A DNA stretch of 11,200 nucleotides, taken from positions 1-11,200 of the forward strand of contig JAMOSO010000028.1 of NCBI GenBank assembly GCA_027063065.1. Reading direction: 5' to 3'. This stretch comes from Planctomycetota bacterium (GTDB lineage: Bacteria; Planctomycetota; JAMOSO01). The notes below the pieces were generated by a model. The model saw only the letters and a program-made list of their open reading frames with translations. It ran no database searches and was not told the DNA's origin. A program made the translations under genes and the position numbers. This document shows positions 250 to 10,760 of the stretch, one piece after another (position 1 is the stretch's first letter; every line of letters begins with the position of its first letter).

Positions 250-444
250 AAATAGCTCCTTATATACGTTTGTTACCCCACCGTTAACTTATATATCGGT
301 TGTAACTAAAGTGGTCTTAACTAAAACTAAAATGTTTTTAAATTTTCAGTATCTTTTTCTTTTGTGAAAGCGTAATTGTTTTGCGATATTTATAGTTGAA
401 TTCAAATTTAAATTGATTAATCTTTGTTACAAATACAAATGAAT
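250..444. other. Divergent intergenic region
   Basis: This AT-rich spacer separates the minus-strand Asn-rich gene from the riboswitch-led plus-strand genes and should contain promoters for both. It holds a TAACTAAA direct repeat (303-310 and 318-325, start to start 15 bases). I see no good ORF, terminator or RNA gene in it. The role of the repeat is unknown. Confidence 0.5.
413..439 (+). promoter_or_regulatory. Candidate promoter for riboswitch-bzaF transcript
   Basis: A TTGATT box (413-418) and a TACAAA box (434-439) lie 15 bases apart. Each matches the sigma-70 consensus at four of six positions. The predicted transcription start, about 445-447, coincides with the first base of the riboswitch closing stem, which is the main reason to prefer this pair. 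Other weak pairs occur in this AT-rich region. Confidence 0.3.
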
Positions 445-583
445 TAAAAAATGATGTACGGAATGCGGTTAGACTCCGCAACGATCCCATCGCTGTATTC
501 GGTTATGTTCTATATAAGTCACTGGTATTTACTGGGAAGACATAGAAATTTAGGCCGTAAGTCAGAAGACGAATCATTTTTTA
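445..583 (+). promoter_or_regulatory. Cobalamin (B12) riboswitch aptamer
   Basis: The conserved blocks of the cobalamin aptamer appear in order: GGAA (460-463), a GCGG/CCGC hairpin (465-479) with the block ending in CTCCG, a TCCC...CGCTGTA block (484-497), CACTGG (520-525) and CTGGGAAGAC (532-541), then GTAAGTCAGAAGAC (557-570). The whole is closed by an 11-bp stem, 445-455 with 573-583. I derived that pairing from the sequence, and it gives independent support. No TPP riboswitch hallmark is present. It lies directly before an intrinsic terminator and the ThiC-family gene, so B12 binding is expected to favour termination and shut off the downstream cobamide genes. A covariance-model search was not possible here. 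Confidence 0.88.
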
Positions 584-600
584 TAACCGAGACCAATGGT

Positions 601-643
601 AAAGGGCTCTGGAATATTTATATATTCCAGAGCCCTTTTTTTT
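601..643 (+). terminator. Intrinsic terminator, riboswitch expression platform
   Basis: A perfect 17-bp stem (601-617 with 622-638) with a TTAT loop is followed by eight T residues (636-643). It lies 18 bases after the aptamer and only 19 bases before the bzaF start codon, the usual place for a transcription-attenuating expression platform. I could not identify a convincing anti-terminator pairing by eye. Confidence 0.92.
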
Positions 644-662
644 ATGTTTTTATAGGATTGAT

Positions 663-1976
663 ATGCAAACGCAAATAGAACAAGCACGTAATAATAAAAT
701 TAGTAAGCAGGTGGCTATAATTGCAAAAGATGAAAGTATTGCTCCTGAAATAATCATGCGTAGAGTTGCTGATGGTGAAATTGTAATACCGTGTAATTAT
801 AATAGGCCTAATCAAAAGGTGTGTGGTATTGGTACGGGATTGCGAACTAAAGTTAATGCCTCTATTGGTACTTCTTCTGATATTTGCGATATAAATCATG
901 AAGTGGCAAAAGCTGTGGCTGCAGAACAAGAAGGTGCTGATAGCCTTATGGAGCTTTCTGCGGGAGGAGATTTAGATGCTATTAGACGTGCTGTTTTAAA
1001 TAATTGCACATTGCCAATTGGTAATGTGCCGTTATATCAGGCGTTTTGCGAAGCTTCGCGTAAATACAAAAATCCTAACAAATTAGATCCAGAATTTTTG
1101 TTTGATTTAATAGAAAAACAATTAGGAGATGGTTTGTCCTTTATGGCTATCCATTGTGGAATTAACCGATACAGTATCGAGCGTTTACGTAAACAAGGTT
1201 ATCGATATGGGGGGTTAGTTTCTAAGGGTGGTACTTTTATGGTAAATTGGATGGATTACAATAAAAAAGAAAATCCGTTATACGAACAATTTGATAGGGT
1301 TTGTGCCTTGATGCGTAAATACGATGCTGTTTTAAGTTTGGGCAATGGGATTCGTGCTGGTGCGATACATGATTCTCATGATAGAGCTCAAATGGCTGAG
1401 ATGATTACTAATTGCGAGTTAGCAGAGTTAGGCCGTAAAATGGGTACTCAGATGATGGTTGAGGGGCCAGGACATGTGCCCCTTAATGAGATTGAAGCTA
1501 ATATTATTTTAGAAAAACGCATGTCAGGTAATGCGCCTTATTATGTTCTAGGGCCAATTCCAGCAGATACTGGAGCTGGTTATGATCATATCACGGCAGC
1601 TATTGGTGCAGCGCAGTCGTCTAAAGCGGGTGCAGATTTAATTTGTTACATTACTCCGGCTGAGCACTTGGCTTTGCCAAATGTAGACGATGTGCGCGAA
1701 GGGGTTCGCACGACACGGTTGGCATGTCGTGTAGGAGATATTGCAAAATATCCAGACCGTAGAGATAATGAAAAAGCCGCAGCAATGGCAAGGCGTGATA
1801 TGCAGTGGGATGAATTAAATAAATATTTATTGTTTCCAGATATTGCACAGCAGATTCGTGAAAGCCGAAGTCCAGCTAAAGAAGATACTTGTTCTATGTG
1901 TGGCGATTTTTGTGCGATGCGTAAAGGTGCAGAAATTTTTTATAACGATTTAAGTCAAAATAAAAGGAGAAAATAA
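663..1976 (+). CDS. bzaF: ThiC-family radical SAM enzyme, probable 5-hydroxybenzimidazole synthase
   Basis: This 437-residue protein belongs to the ThiC superfamily: it has the GIGTGLRTKVNASIG block near the N-terminus, EGPGHVP (267-273), GYDHI (306-310), TPAEHLALP with His335, and a C-terminal cysteine motif C410-SM-C413-GDF-C417 for the [4Fe-4S] cluster. His271 and His335 match the expected zinc ligands. ThiC turns aminoimidazole ribotide into the thiamin pyrimidine; its paralogue BzaF turns the same substrate into 5-hydroxybenzimidazole, a B12 lower ligand, under anaerobic conditions. I favour BzaF because a cobalamin riboswitch controls the gene and cobT overlaps its stop (TAATG). The cysteine motif spacing is CX2CX3C rather than the classical ThiC CX2CX4C, and the usual ThiC 'DIAPGYDHI' reads 'DTGAGYDHI'. 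A weak AGGA precedes the ATG. Plain ThiC remains the alternative. Confidence 0.8.
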   Translation: MQTQIEQARNNKISKQVAIIAKDESIAPEIIMRRVADGEIVIPCNYNRPNQKVCGIGTGLRTKVNASIGTSSDICDINHEVAKAVAAEQEGADSLMELSAGGDLDAIRRAVLNNCTLPIGNVPLYQAFCEASRKYKNPNKLDPEFLFDLIEKQLGDGLSFMAIHCGINRYSIERLRKQGYRYGGLVSKGGTFMVNWMDYNKKENPLYEQFDRVCALMRKYDAVLSLGNGIRAGAIHDSHDRAQMAEMITNCELAELGRKMGTQMMVEGPGHVPLNEIEANIILEKRMSGNAPYYVLGPIPADTGAGYDHITAAIGAAQSSKAGADLICYITPAEHLALPNVDDVREGVRTTRLACRVGDIAKYPDRRDNEKAAAMARRDMQWDELNKYLLFPDIAQQIRESRSPAKEDTCSMCGDFCAMRKGAEIFYNDLSQNKRRK

Positions 1977-3037
1977 TGAAGCTTGAAGAAGTGGTAAAAT
2001 CTATAAAACCAACTGATAAAAGTGTCTTTGTAAAAGCTAATGAACGTTTGAGAAATCAAGCTAAGCCAGCAGGTTCGTTAGGCGTTTTAGAGACAGTTAG
2101 TGCAAGACTGGCATCGATTGCTGGTAAATTAGATGTACATTTAAAACATAAAAAAGTTTTAGTTTGTGCTGGTGATCACGGTGTTGTAGCGCAGGGTGTT
2201 AGTTTGTTTCCGCAAGAGGTTACTCATCAAATGGTTTTAAATTTTGTTAATGGAGGGGCAAGTATCAATGTTTTAGCTCGCCACGCCAATGCTGATGTGC
2301 ATGTGATTGATATGGGCGTTAATTTTGATTTTGCAGATGATTTAAATATTTTTCATAAAAAAATTGCTAAAGGCACTGCCGATATTTCAGAAGGCGCAGC
2401 CATGAGCCGTAGTGAAGCAATTAAATCAATTGAAAATGGTATATCAGTAGTAGAGGAGTTATGTGCTAAAGGTTCTGTGGATATTATAGCAACTGGAGAT
2501 ATGGGTATAGGTAACACTACAGCTTCGACAGCTATTATAGGAGTATTGTCTGGGATGGATTTAGCTAAATTAGCTGGGCGTGGTACAGGTATAGACGATG
2601 AAGCACTAAAAAACAAAATAAAGGTTTTGCAACGGGCTATTCAAATTAATAGACCTGATAAATCAGACGCTATTGATGTGTTGGCAAAGGTGGGCGGTTT
2701 TGAAATAGGCGGTTTGGCAGGTATTGTTATAGGTGCAGCTGCTGCAGGATTGCCTGTGGTATGTGATGGTTTAATATCAACAGCTGGTGCATTAATAGCT
2801 TGTGAAATTGCTCCAATAGCCAAGGAATATTTGTTTGCTTCACATAAATCAGTTGAGATTGCGCATCAATTTATGCATAGTCATTTGGGTCTTGAGCCTT
2901 TGTTTGATTTTGGTTTGCGTTTAGGAGAAGGTACAGGGGCAACTTTAGCGTTGGAAATATTAGACGCATCAACAAGGGTTTTGGCTGATATTAAAACCTT
3001 TGCAGAAATTGGAATAGGGGATTGCAATCTTGATTAA
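1976..3037 (+). CDS. cobT: Nicotinate-nucleotide-dimethylbenzimidazole phosphoribosyltransferase
   Basis: CobT transfers phosphoribose from nicotinate mononucleotide to a lower-ligand base, forming the alpha-ribazole phosphate that becomes the cobamide nucleotide loop. The 353-residue length is normal. Family motifs run in order: PAGSLGVLE, CAGDHGVVAQGVS, FPQEVTHQMV, NFVNGGASINVLA, IDMGV, ATGDMGIGNTTAS, GRGTGIDD, and RLGEGTGATLAL, in which Glu318 matches the catalytic glutamate of Salmonella CobT (Glu317). The start is firm: an AAGGAG (1964-1969) lies six bases upstream and the ATG overlaps the bzaF stop by one base, so the two are probably translationally coupled. The natural substrate here would be 5-hydroxybenzimidazole if the upstream gene is bzaF. 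No cobU or cobC is seen in the window. Confidence 0.95.
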   Translation: MKLEEVVKSIKPTDKSVFVKANERLRNQAKPAGSLGVLETVSARLASIAGKLDVHLKHKKVLVCAGDHGVVAQGVSLFPQEVTHQMVLNFVNGGASINVLARHANADVHVIDMGVNFDFADDLNIFHKKIAKGTADISEGAAMSRSEAIKSIENGISVVEELCAKGSVDIIATGDMGIGNTTASTAIIGVLSGMDLAKLAGRGTGIDDEALKNKIKVLQRAIQINRPDKSDAIDVLAKVGGFEIGGLAGIVIGAAAAGLPVVCDGLISTAGALIACEIAPIAKEYLFASHKSVEIAHQFMHSHLGLEPLFDFGLRLGEGTGATLALEILDASTRVLADIKTFAEIGIGDCNLD

Positions 3038-3169
3038 TTGGAATAGTTATTAATCAGTTGTAATTATTGATACAGTTGCACTTTAGTATAGTGTAATAGA
3101 TTGGTTAAGGTTGTATTTTTTATTACAATATCATCATTACAATTTTAAGTAATTACATTGAGGATTAAT
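3038..3169 (+). other. cobT-cobS intergenic gap
   Basis: This is the only long gap in the run from bzaF to the ABC-F gene. It is AT-rich and holds an imperfect hairpin (TTGCACT 3076-3082 with AGTGTAA 3090-3096, one G-U pair) without a T run, so it is not a good terminator. A TTGATA box (3067-3072) with TATAGT (3087-3092) resembles promoter elements, but the 14-base spacing is short. An internal promoter for cobS and later genes is possible but unproven. Confidence 0.3.
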
Positions 3170-3916
3170 ATGCGTTATTTTTATATAGCATTAAGTTTTT
3201 TGACAATAATACCAATTCATTTAGATGATATTGAGGATGTGGATTTTGCAAAATCAGTTAAATATTTTACAATAGTCGGTACGCTTGTCGGTTTATTGTG
3301 TGCTGCAATTGGTTATGTTAGTTTGCTTTTGTTTGATCCGTTTAGTACCTCTATCATTGTGGTTGCCAGTATGAGTTTGATTTCTGGTGCTTTGCATACG
3401 GATGGATTGGCTGATACTTTTGATGGTTTTTTAAGTTCACGCTCTTTAAAACGTAAATTAGATATAATGCACGACAGCCGTATTGGTACAATGGGAGTGT
3501 TGGCTATATTGTTTGTGATGCTTTTAAAGATTTCATTATTGTTTAGTATTTCTTCTAGTCCAAGTTATATGTTGGCAGTTGTCTTTTTAATGCCATTAGC
3601 AGGTAGAGTATCGCAAATTTTATCGATGAGCCTATTGCCTTATGCTCGCGAGGACGGTTTGGGTTTGTTGTTTTGGGATAGTAGTCAATCAAGGTTTCGT
3701 TTAGCTTTGATTTTATTTTTAATAATTAGCATTTTAGTATGTATAATTGTTGGCGTGTCTGTATTTAAAGCTTTGTTTTTAACTTTTTGGCTGATATTAA
3801 TTACGGGGATTTTTTCTAACTGGTGTTATAAGGCAATAGAAGGCGGTACAGGTGATACTTTAGGAGCAATCACAGAGATTATAGAGCTAGTTACAGTGGC
3901 GTATTTTGCGATTTAG
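3170..3916 (+). CDS. cobS: Adenosylcobinamide-GDP ribazoletransferase (cobamide synthase)
   Basis: CobS is the inner-membrane enzyme that joins adenosylcobinamide-GDP to alpha-ribazole (phosphate), the last assembly step of cobamide synthesis. From the preferred start the protein has 248 residues, typical for the family. It shows the N-terminal FLTIIPI, the metal-binding HTDGLADTFDG (76-86, Asp78 and Asp82), MHDSRIGTMG soon after, and the C-terminal GGTGDTLGAITEI. Several hydrophobic spans, about 35-54 and 61-75 and further ones in the C-terminal half, fit a multi-pass membrane protein. I chose the ATG at 3170 because GAGG (3160-3163) lies six bases before it; an in-frame TTG at 3158 overlaps the binding site region and adds only four residues. 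It supplies the step after CobT in the same strand run. Confidence 0.95.
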   Translation: MRYFYIALSFLTIIPIHLDDIEDVDFAKSVKYFTIVGTLVGLLCAAIGYVSLLLFDPFSTSIIVVASMSLISGALHTDGLADTFDGFLSSRSLKRKLDIMHDSRIGTMGVLAILFVMLLKISLLFSISSSPSYMLAVVFLMPLAGRVSQILSMSLLPYAREDGLGLLFWDSSQSRFRLALILFLIISILVCIIVGVSVFKALFLTFWLILITGIFSNWCYKAIEGGTGDTLGAITEIIELVTVAYFAI

Positions 3917-3918
3917 AT

Positions 3919-4704
3919 ATGTGTATTGAAAAAGAACAAAAATTAATCAAATACTTACAAGGTTATAAGCAATTGGCGTTGGCTTATTCTGGTGGTGTTG
4001 ATTCTACTTATTTAGCTGATGTAATATTTGAGGTGTTAGGTTTAAATGCTCAAATGATTATTGCTGATTCGCCTTCTATCCCGCGAACAGAACTTGCTTT
4101 TGCTGTTGATATTGCCAAGCAAAGAGGTTGGAATTTGCGAGTTATCAAAACAAATGAACATAAAAAAGAGGCTTACTTATTAAATCAAGGTGATAGGTGT
4201 TATCATTGCAAAAAAGAATTATTTACACAAATGCAAACAGTTTTGGACAATGCTACTCATTTGGTATTAGCTCATGGTGCAATTGAGGACGACCGCGCCG
4301 AGATTAGGCCAGGTACAAAAGCAGCGTCAGAATCTAGTGTGATTGCCCCGTTGCAAGAGGTTAAATTGTATAAATCAGAAATACGCAAATTAAGTAAGTT
4401 GCGTTTGTTGCCAACCAGCAATAAAGCGTCTTTTGCTTGTTTAGGTTCTAGGTTTCCAACGGGGGTAAAGATAGATTTAGATACTATGCGACAAATAGAA
4501 ATGGCAGAAGAAATCTTACGCAAGTATAATTTTTATCAATATAGGGTTCGTCATCACGGAGAGATTTGTAGGATTGAAATTGATCCTAAGGATTTTGAAA
4601 AATTAATGCTTAACCGTGTAGATATAGTTACGGCTATTAAAAAAACAGGTTATCGTTATGTGAGTTTAGATTTAGATGGTTACGTTACTGGTTCAACGGC
4701 TTAA
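3919..4704 (+). CDS. larE: LarE-like ATP-dependent sacrificial sulfur transferase
   Basis: This 261-residue PP-loop protein has the ATP-pyrophosphatase motif SGGVDSTYL (24-32), then CYHCKKELF (Cys94, Cys97), RPGTKAA (130-136) and ACLGSRFP (Cys174). LarE activates a carboxylate of the nickel-pincer precursor and gives it sulfur. In single-cysteine LarE, the cysteine equivalent to Cys174 is sacrificed; in a three-cysteine group (known from Thermotoga) this cysteine and a CxxC pair hold an iron-sulfur cluster. The pattern here fits the three-cysteine group. It starts two bases after the cobS stop with no clear ribosome binding site, which suggests translational coupling. No larA, larB or larC is in the window, so the physiological substrate is uncertain. 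Assignment to the LarE family is good; the lactate racemase role is not established. Confidence 0.85.
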   Translation: MCIEKEQKLIKYLQGYKQLALAYSGGVDSTYLADVIFEVLGLNAQMIIADSPSIPRTELAFAVDIAKQRGWNLRVIKTNEHKKEAYLLNQGDRCYHCKKELFTQMQTVLDNATHLVLAHGAIEDDRAEIRPGTKAASESSVIAPLQEVKLYKSEIRKLSKLRLLPTSNKASFACLGSRFPTGVKIDLDTMRQIEMAEEILRKYNFYQYRVRHHGEICRIEIDPKDFEKLMLNRVDIVTAIKKTGYRYVSLDLDGYVTGSTA

Positions 4705-8240: not shown

Positions 8241-8279
8241 AAAGCCCTCTGAAGCCTTTGGTTTCAGAGGGCTTTTTTT
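8241..8279 (+). terminator. Intrinsic terminator after rpsD
   Basis: A stem of 13 perfect base pairs (8241-8253 with 8263-8275) continues inward through a G-T wobble and two G-C pairs to a TTT loop, followed by seven T residues (8273-8279). It begins 20 bases after the rpsD stop. The A-rich bases just upstream would let it also work weakly on the other strand, but no converging gene is present. Confidence 0.93.
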
Positions 8280-8286
8280 GTATACT
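8258..8286 (+). promoter_or_regulatory. Candidate promoter for HTH-pseudocyclase gene
   Basis: TATACT (8281-8286, five of six matches to the -10 consensus) follows the terminator T run, and TTGGTT (8258-8263) lies 17 bases upstream as a weak -35 inside the terminator stem. Transcription would start near 8293, leaving a leader of about 20 bases with the ribosome binding site. Some promoter is needed here because the preceding terminator is strong. Confidence 0.4.
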
Positions 8287-8311
8287 ATTATTATTTAAAT
8301 CGGGAGTCAGT

Positions 8312-9052
8312 ATGGCAATATCTGTAGTTAAGCTTGGTAAACGCATCAGAGATCAGCGTGAAAAAAAAGGCTTATATCAAGCCGATTTAGCTAGGTTGTT
8401 ACAGGTAAGTGCACAGGCAGTTTCAAAGTGGGAACGTGGTGAAAATGCTCCTGATATATCTTATTTTTTAGAACTGGCAAAAATACTTGGGGTTACTGTC
8501 GATTGGTTACTTGGACGAGCCGACTCCGAAGAAGATACTTTTGAAGCCACTATCTTTTGTACAGCCTTAAACGGTTATGCTTCTCGCAGTGCATCGCTTT
8601 CACCTCGTGATGTTGCCGATTGGGCAAATGCATTCTTTCATCCTATTACTGAAGCGGTATTGCGATATGAGGGAGTACCAGTTAAATATGTTGGAGATGG
8701 TTTTTTAGCTTTTTTTGCTGGTCGTGACCATGCGATGCGCGGTTTTGAAGCTATGCGCCAATGTAAAACTATATGTAATAATCCAGATTTGGTTATTGGC
8801 TTACATTGTGGCGAGATTTATTTAGGTTCGATAGGCTCGGGAGATTATGCCACGCCAGATATTATTGGTGAAGCAGTTAATACGTCTTTTATGGTTAGAA
8901 ATTGGATAGCTAAAAATTTAGAAAATCCTATGGCGATAACATCTTCTGTTTACAGACAGATAGAAAAAAACATACCTAAATTATTAAAATACGAGGCTCA
9001 AGTAGAAGGCTTGTTAAAAAAAATTAATGTTTATGAGTTGTGCAATGTTTAA
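8312..9052 (+). CDS. XRE-family HTH protein fused to degraded class III cyclase-like domain
   Basis: The preferred start, with GGGAG (8302-8306) five bases upstream, gives 246 residues. Residues 7-68 form an XRE/Cro-type DNA-binding domain (KKGLYQADLARLL, SAQAVSKWERGENAPD, LGVTVDWLLG). Residues about 78-245 resemble the class III adenylate/guanylate cyclase fold: VKYVGDGFLAFF (Lys125, Asp129), LHCGEIYLGSIGSGDY and PDIIGEAVN (Asp183, Asn190). The first metal aspartate position of the family ('FAD') reads Phe-Cys-Thr (Thr84), and the transition-state arginine four residues after the Asn is Met194. I therefore infer a catalytically dead or strongly altered domain that may sense a ligand and control DNA binding. 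No membrane segment is present. Its stop overlaps the likely ispG start, so it may regulate or be coupled to ispG. Target and ligand are unknown. Confidence 0.78.
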   Translation: MAISVVKLGKRIRDQREKKGLYQADLARLLQVSAQAVSKWERGENAPDISYFLELAKILGVTVDWLLGRADSEEDTFEATIFCTALNGYASRSASLSPRDVADWANAFFHPITEAVLRYEGVPVKYVGDGFLAFFAGRDHAMRGFEAMRQCKTICNNPDLVIGLHCGEIYLGSIGSGDYATPDIIGEAVNTSFMVRNWIAKNLENPMAITSSVYRQIEKNIPKLLKYEAQVEGLLKKINVYELCNV

Positions 9053-10760
9053 GCGTAGAGCTTCACGGGTAGTTAATGTTGGACATTTAAAAATAGGCGG
9101 TAACAATCCTGTTGTTGTTCAAAGTATGGTAACAGCCAATACCATGGATACAAAAGCGGTTGTCGATGAAGTTAAAGCTTTAGTTGATGTAGGTTGTCAA
9201 ATGGTGCGTATTACAGCGCCTACTGTTGGTGCAGCTAAAAATTTGGGTGTGATTAAGCAACAGTTGCATGGTGTTAAGGTTGCTTTAGTTGCGGATATCC
9301 ATTTTCAAGCTGCAGCGGCAATGGAGGCAGCTTTGTATGTGGATAAGGTAAGGATTAATCCAGGTAATTTTTGTGAGTCTCAGGCACAAAACTTAGAAGA
9401 TAGTTTTAAGGCTTTATTGGATATATGCTCTGAACGTGGGGTGGCTATCCGTATAGGTACAAATCATGGTTCTCTTTCAGAAAGAATGATGAAACAATTT
9501 GGTAATACTTCTGCTGGAATGGTAGAAAGTGCTTTAGAGTTTTTAAGAATAGCCAGAAAATATAAATTTGATGATATTATTTTATCTATGAAAGCTTCTA
9601 ATCCTAGGGTTATGATTGACGCATACCGCAGTTTAGTAGAATCCATGGATTTAGAAGGTATGGATTATCCATTGCATTTGGGTGTTACTGAAGCTGGCGA
9701 TGGCGAAGACGGACGTATTAAAAGTGCTATTGGCATAGGTTCGTTATTAAGCGATGGTATTGGCGATACTATTAGAGTATCTCTGACAGAAGATGCTGTT
9801 TGTGAAATCCCAGTTGCAAAAGATTTATTATCCGCCTTAGATGGTATTAACAAAAATGTAACTAAGATGGTTAATTGGCCTAAGGGTTTTGTTAGAAGAA
9901 TCACTCGTGAGATTAAAATAGGTGATTTGACTATAGGGGCAAAAAATCCTGTGTGTGTAGGTGTAAGTGCCAAGTTTGTTAATCAAAATAATGATACACC
10001 TGTTGAATTATTATTTACTGAGCATATTCCTGATAAAAAAATTAAGGGATGCAGTTATTGTGTAGCCTATAAGTCTCTTGTTGATGCAGGTGATATTACC
10101 AATGTTGATGCTGTGTTAGTCAATAATATTACAGAGTTAAAAAATGTCGCCAAATATAATGTAACTCCTATTATAAAATGGTCGCGCAATTTAGATTTAG
10201 ACGGGTTTGAAGGTGTTGTGTTGTTAGAGGTCAATTCTGTATACGATGTGCGTTTAGCTTTAGATTTTTTGTTAGATTTACCAGTAATTTTAAAAACAAG
10301 CGGGTCTGTTTTAGCAAATGCTGTTAAGTTGGGTTCTGCTTTATGTGATGGTTATGGTGATGGTATTTTAATTGATGATATAAATGGTGATAAGGCTTGT
10401 CGAGAAGCCTACACTATTTTGCAATCATCTGGATCGCGTTTAACCAGAACAGATTTTATAGCCTGTCCTTCTTGTGGACGTACATTATTTAACTTGCAAG
10501 AGACAACCGCTAGGGTCAAGGCTGTTACTTCGCATTTAAAAGGTGTTAAGATTGCTATTATGGGTTGCATAGTTAATGGCCCAGGCGAAATGGCCGATGC
10601 TGATTTTGGTTATGTTGGGGGTGCTCCAGATAAAATTAATTTATATGTCGGCAAGAAGTGCGTAAGGCGTTCAATACCCAGTCATAAAGCGGTTGATGAA
10701 TTGGTGGATTTGTTAAAATCAGAAGGTGTTTGGGTTGATATTAATCCTAAAACCAGCTGA
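9045..10760 (+). CDS. ispG: 4-hydroxy-3-methylbut-2-enyl-diphosphate synthase, long three-domain form
   Basis: IspG (GcpE) converts MEcPP to HMBPP, the penultimate step of the MEP isoprenoid pathway, with a [4Fe-4S] cluster. From the ATG at 9045 the protein has 571 residues, against about 360-420 for the common two-domain enzyme. The N-terminal TIM barrel shows PVVVQSM, ALVADIHF, KVRINPGN, IGTNHGSL and LGVTEAG. Residues of about 280-440 form the inserted A* domain of the long form. The C-terminal domain has C474PSC477, C508IVNGPGE with Glu515, and YVGGAPDKINLYVGK. Three starts are possible (9027, 9033, 9045). I prefer 9045 because the homologous N-terminus begins right after it and GAG (9035-9037) precedes it. 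This start overlaps the HTH-pseudocyclase gene by eight bases, implying translational coupling. Confidence 0.95.
   Translation: MFKRRASRVVNVGHLKIGGNNPVVVQSMVTANTMDTKAVVDEVKALVDVGCQMVRITAPTVGAAKNLGVIKQQLHGVKVALVADIHFQAAAAMEAALYVDKVRINPGNFCESQAQNLEDSFKALLDICSERGVAIRIGTNHGSLSERMMKQFGNTSAGMVESALEFLRIARKYKFDDIILSMKASNPRVMIDAYRSLVESMDLEGMDYPLHLGVTEAGDGEDGRIKSAIGIGSLLSDGIGDTIRVSLTEDAVCEIPVAKDLLSALDGINKNVTKMVNWPKGFVRRITREIKIGDLTIGAKNPVCVGVSAKFVNQNNDTPVELLFTEHIPDKKIKGCSYCVAYKSLVDAGDITNVDAVLVNNITELKNVAKYNVTPIIKWSRNLDLDGFEGVVLLEVNSVYDVRLALDFLLDLPVILKTSGSVLANAVKLGSALCDGYGDGILIDDINGDKACREAYTILQSSGSRLTRTDFIACPSCGRTLFNLQETTARVKAVTSHLKGVKIAIMGCIVNGPGEMADADFGYVGGAPDKINLYVGKKCVRRSIPSHKAVDELVDLLKSEGVWVDINPKTS

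Follow-up and report, generated by a model that had tools for sequence, protein, structure and literature searches.

The window, by which we mean the whole stretch of 11,200 nucleotides analysed here, carries a leader with a cobalamin riboswitch aptamer and an intrinsic terminator, followed on the same strand by genes read as bzaF, cobT and cobS (Table 1). The RF00174 match spans the full covariance model (1-189) and scores far above the gathering score of 31.5 bits. The cobalamin riboswitch that the first-pass annotation had placed before a ThiC-family gene held in all checked points except its start, the match beginning at 435 and not at 445. The closing stem of 11 bp described in that annotation was recovered in the predicted fold (445-455 paired with 573-583), as was the terminator of 17 bp with its eight Ts: positions 601-617 pair with 622-638 around a UUAU loop, the T run lies at 636-643 with three Ts base-paired with AAA, and 0 of 200 dinucleotide shuffles were equally stable. 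The terminator starts 8 bases past the end of the aptamer match, and the order of aptamer, terminator and start codon fits an attenuation mechanism in which cobamide binding favours the terminator. An alternative fold sequestering the 5' arm of the terminator arose only when the 5' part of the aptamer was omitted from folding, and the antiterminator is thus a computed model.

Table 1. Leader elements and operon genes located in the window
Feature	Positions	Strand	Evidence
Cobalamin riboswitch aptamer	435..592	+	RF00174, 69.2 bits, E = 9.2e-16; predicted fold
Intrinsic terminator, 17-bp stem and eight Ts	601..643	+	-28.0 kcal/mol, z = -7.75; sequence
bzaF, predicted 5-hydroxybenzimidazole synthase (ThiC-family radical SAM), 437 aa	663..1976	+	PF01964; tree clade; Ser67/Lys188/Asn228
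cobT, lower-base activation	1976..3037	+	TIGR03160, 417.6 bits, cut-off 319.3
cobS, attachment of the lower base to the corrinoid	3158..3916	+	TIGR00317, 130.7 bits, cut-off 110; PF02654

The product of the first gene matches PF01964 with an E value of 4.8e-171. Its stop codon TAA (1974-1976) and the cobT start codon ATG (1976-1978) have one base in common, so the overlap of the ThiC-family gene with cobT, already pointed out in the first pass, is a single base. Genes for both activation and attachment of the lower ligand adjoin bzaF, cobT overlapping it and cobS coming next, with a cobS start codon that is ambiguous between GTG, TTG and ATG (one ATG lies at 3170). None of the genes bzaC, bzaD and bzaE was found within the window.

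By similarity alone the gene would be annotated thiC, as had been anticipated: the NCBIfam ThiC models accept the protein (561.9 bits against a cut-off of 410, and 511.3 against 460), a result that speaks against the BzaF reading, and the cut-off of the BzaB model TIGR04386 is missed (494.7 against 700 bits). The annotated BzaF of Trichlorobacter lovleyi likewise scores as ThiC and stays below the BzaB cut-off, so that the ThiC cut-off is not discriminating, and these models were rejected as arbiter. The window protein shares 64.8% identity with T. lovleyi BzaF and, among the matches listed from plasmid records, at most 44.2% with plasmid ThiCs; its identity to ThiC proteins is about 37-47%.

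The phylogenetic placement was examined in a tree of 42 proteins, composed of ThiC (19), BzaF (16 including the window protein) and a third group (7), each forming one side of a fully supported branch. The window protein and T. lovleyi BzaF, the sole named BzaF in the tree and one named by annotation rather than by assay, fall in one clade with support of 100/99; named BzaA and BzaB and the BzaF of G. sulfurreducens lie outside the sampling. A topology placing the window protein with ThiC was rejected (AU p = 4.2e-5, a value that ignores that the groups were named after a first tree, with a log-likelihood gap of 72 that is still large), and an earlier tree of 64 proteins was concordant. The protein therefore lies outside ThiC and with the annotated BzaF, the outcome that the first-pass annotation had predicted. 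Within its clade, which is mostly Desulfobacterota, the window BzaF branches with Lentisphaerota sequences (98/89), and this pairing suggests that the gene may have been transferred between these groups.

We compared also the active-site residues by alignment to the solved structure of A. thaliana ThiC (AtThiC, 4s25), with Asp383 and Glu422 as anchors. Ser67, Lys188, Asn228 and Ala232 of the window protein correspond to Asn228, Arg343, Asp383 and Pro387 of AtThiC, and the same four residues are found in T. lovleyi BzaF and in 80 of 80 BzaF-clade proteins. Asn228, Arg343 and Asp383 are retained in all ThiCs compared, including the ThiC of the same genome, once it is noted that one entry grouped with the BzaF loci is a ThiC by its 40% identity and its residues, and that one entry grouped with the long ThiCs is in fact the window gene. 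AIR is bonded in AtThiC at its 3'-hydroxyl by Asn228 and at its N3 by Asp383 (PMC11117688; contacts in PMC4389238); the N228D and D383A variants consume AIR with zero HMP-P formed, and partial activity remains in D383N (PMC11117688). The two residues needed for normal HMP-P formation are thus absent from the window protein, which has Ser67 and Asn228 in their place. Conserved with ThiC are the cluster cysteines, the metal histidines, Glu422, the residues contacting the AIR phosphate and most of those contacting SAM. This pattern is as expected for an enzyme that would bind AIR and SAM in the manner of ThiC and steer the radical to another product, and changes of the Ser67/Lys188/Asn228 type may decide which product is formed. 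Positions 67, 188 and 228 separate BzaF from ThiC, their relation to the product being a correlation across clades, and they could serve to relabel misnamed thiC genes. Two other candidate markers were rejected: the cysteine equivalent to Cys474 of CcThiC is retained in BzaF too, and the CX2CX3C form of the cluster motif, as against CX2CX4C, is also found in short ThiCs.

A scan of genome contigs with the window protein listed its 80 nearest matches. The relatives of the window protein at 72-80% identity come mostly from Desulfobacterota, the nearest two being from Lentisphaeria and Victivallales. A cobalamin riboswitch lies 5' of bzaF on the same strand in 23 of the 24 relatives scanned in other genomes, ending at most 230 bases from the gene in 21 of those 23; the sole exception, L006, has just 1.4 kb of upstream sequence. 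The riboswitch is present too in G240, a genome of the same phylum as the window genome, and cobT directly follows bzaF in most riboswitch-bearing relatives with enough sequence. In a simple scan, 10 of 22 relatives had terminator-like hairpins in their leaders, the 5' arm mostly starting with AAAGG as in the window. Given the riboswitch in 23 of 24 relatives, the arrangement is an ordinary one, mainly of Desulfobacterota; the order riboswitch-bzaF-cobT is a known one, common among sulfate reducers, and the window adds a further case. In Desulfocicer, Desulfospira, Desulfobulbus, Desulfoluna and Desulfosarcina the protein is 72-78% identical, with a riboswitch upstream and cobT next in most, but the host phylum differs from that of the window and several loci add a Methyltransf_2-like gene after cobT. 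Such a gene often follows bzaF-cobT (L087:13319-14353; also L022, L036, L045 and L055), and its products, 35-40% identical to the T. lovleyi methyltransferase, are candidates for BzaC.

Among known systems, BzaF occurs in Geobacterales (G. sulfurreducens GSU3005; T. lovleyi plasmid NC_010815), and the T. lovleyi protein shares with the window protein both its clade and the residues that distinguish it from ThiC. cobT stands beside bzaF in T. lovleyi as in the window, but there it lies 5' of bzaF and a methyltransferase follows, whereas the window has riboswitch-bzaF-cobT-cobS without a methyltransferase, in another phylum. G. sulfurreducens, which has bzaF and cobT, produces 5-hydroxybenzimidazolyl cobamide (PMC8123684, PMC7726332), and a riboswitch has been reported before operons including bzaF in Geotalea daltonii (PMC13119186). 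BzaA and BzaB of the acetogens Moorella and Eubacterium limosum carry out the same reaction and have ThiC ancestry (PMC8123684), but require two genes where the window has one. ThiC itself, the phosphomethylpyrimidine synthase, belongs to the same PF01964 fold family and has the AIR phosphate and SAM contacts, metal histidines and cluster cysteines in common with the window protein, from which it differs by its separate clade and by the three residues changed in the window.

A sister clade of BzaF, 53-55% identical to the window protein, was observed in other families of the phylum of the window genome (L150:6960-11873, L158:8680-13534, L159:5166-9456 and L160:5785-9652). At positions 67 and 228 its proteins carry Ser and Asn, as BzaF does; in the loci scanned, a cobalamin riboswitch and cobT were absent nearby. 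The neighbours of the gene encode a B12-binding radical SAM protein and a product similar to O-methyltransferases, and two of the loci also have a PpiC-type isomerase; the locus may be a bza-like operon. As a guess, the host families could be anammox bacteria; in a literature search on anammox and lower ligands, none of the matches listed mentions anammox.

The genome, a draft assembly of 2.13 Mb on 71 contigs, has a completeness of 90% and an estimated contamination of 0.2%, and no second genome of its class was among those compared. A search with the window protein returned only two ThiC-family genes from this 90% complete genome, the window gene and a canonical ThiC of the long form (contig C12, 27649-28905); as the only other family member is the canonical ThiC, there is no partner of the BzaA/BzaB type. 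The gene beside the canonical thiC reads by eye as thiI. The expectation of a second thiC under a TPP riboswitch held for the gene and failed for its control, since no TPP riboswitch was found in the whole draft genome by a search that was positive in 10 of 14 control genomes; TPP control of the second thiC was accordingly rejected. A second cobalamin riboswitch, above the gathering score, lies on contig C39 (17354-17465) and adjoins genes matching cbiK, L, C, D, E, F, G, H and A together with an ABC transporter, and a CobD-CbiP fusion is encoded on contig C70. Most corrin-pathway genes are thus present in this genome; the organism therefore very probably makes the corrin ring and would need a lower base. 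The best match in the genome to the methyltransferase of the related operons has 22% identity and lies beside an eboE-like gene, and was rejected as a bzaC-like methyltransferase. We observed also a divergent second CobT-like protein (L185:4787-5836, contig C7), 29% identical to the window CobT and scoring 166 bits against the cut-off of 319.3, near eboE-like, 3-dehydroquinate-synthase-like and methyltransferase genes.

The genome further encodes BluB (L180:1483-2127; G000:C67:22031-22642, minus strand), with 217 bits against a cut-off of 150 for TIGR02476 and S. meliloti BluB (2isj) as closest solved structure. Work by Taga and colleagues in 2007 is said to have shown that BluB requires oxygen. 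Because of this gene the lower ligand need not come from an anaerobic route only, and of the anaerobic lower-ligand synthesis via BzaF that had been proposed, the BzaF part is supported by the tree and the residues; that the supply is anaerobic only does not follow. The G+C content of the bluB contig (0.34) falls among the values of the other contigs inspected; its membership in the genome cannot be proved, a misplacement being possible in a draft bin.

The best explanation of these results is that bzaF-cobT-cobS constitutes a lower-ligand operon for cobamide synthesis in which a cobalamin riboswitch governs expression by attenuating transcription. We regard it as very likely, as far as the identity of the enzyme is concerned, that the gene codes for BzaF under cobamide feedback, and its product is most likely 5-hydroxybenzimidazole for factor III, judging from sequence comparisons. 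When cobamide is scarce, the leader would avoid the terminator and BzaF would be made; this radical SAM enzyme would then form 5-hydroxybenzimidazole from AIR, a precursor of purines, in an oxygen-independent reaction, CobT would turn the base into its ribazole phosphate, and CobS would join this with GDP-cobinamide to give 5-hydroxybenzimidazolyl cobamide (factor III). Plentiful cobamide would bind the aptamer, let the terminator form and switch the operon off. The base probably remains 5-hydroxybenzimidazole, given a window without bzaC, bzaD and bzaE and a methyltransferase match of only 22% in the genome. Which cobamide is present in the cells is less certain than the identity of the enzyme, because of BluB.

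That the gene is instead a second true ThiC making HMP-P, under B12 control by chance or so as to coordinate both vitamins, seems to us very improbable. Such a protein would pass the curated ThiC cut-offs and retain the catalytic cysteine and the residues in contact with AIR and SAM, as this one does, and in a genome without a TPP riboswitch control by TPP is not the rule; but the tree rejects it, the equivalents of Asn228 and Asp383 are altered, the operon is shared with cobT and cobS, and the genome has another ThiC. Somewhat less remote, though still unlikely, is an enzyme of the BzaF clade that makes another benzimidazole, or acts as half of a BzaA/BzaB-like pair, with a native cobamide other than factor III. 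The methyltransferase that often follows cobT in related operons would agree with this, as would the many sulfate reducers in the clade, whose cobamides may differ, and the naming of BzaF in the immediate clade by annotation alone; against it stand the missing partner in a genome with just two ThiC-family genes, the 22% match to the related-operon methyltransferase and the missed BzaB cut-off. Control at the level of translation, or at both levels, rather than by termination alone is improbable as well: the hairpins in just 10 of 22 relatives mean that attenuation need not be family-wide, but the window terminator is very strong and begins 8 bases behind the aptamer match.

More weight, although less than an even chance, is given to the possibility that BluB normally supplies 5,6-dimethylbenzimidazole for true cobalamin and that BzaF serves only without oxygen, the cobamide switching with oxygen. 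The BluB score and its closest structure point this way, and so do hints, recognised by eye, that the organism meets oxygen, among them a gene resembling c-type cytochrome peroxidases; on the other side, bluB lies outside the riboswitch operon and on a contig of a draft bin that may be misplaced, though its G+C content and the low contamination estimate fit. We can only tentatively propose, then, one organism with an oxygen-requiring BluB and an oxygen-sensitive BzaF, making different cobamides with and without oxygen, in which the BzaF branch is under B12 feedback. If true, BluB and BzaF together would make this a dual-route genome in a poorly sampled class. Returning to BzaF as the preferred reading, the locus firmly illustrates how regulation and genomic context can correct a name assigned by ThiC models, and it places BzaF in a lineage without another genome of its class among those compared.

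Other genes of the window were also noted. A larE gene (3919-4704, 271.7 bits against a cut-off of 150) begins three bases past cobS and may be co-transcribed with it; nicotinate nucleotides feed both the pathway of LarE and CobT, and this link may or may not be a coincidence. The product of 8258-9052 combines an XRE-type helix-turn-helix (HTH_3) with a C-terminal region that on inspection by eye looks similar to class III nucleotidyl cyclase domains (motif VKYVGDGFLAFF); Pfam gave for this protein the helix-turn-helix only, without a cyclase match. The gene at 9027-10760 codes for IspG in a long form of 577 aa with an insert, the compared genomes of the same phylum having short forms of about 360-390 aa.
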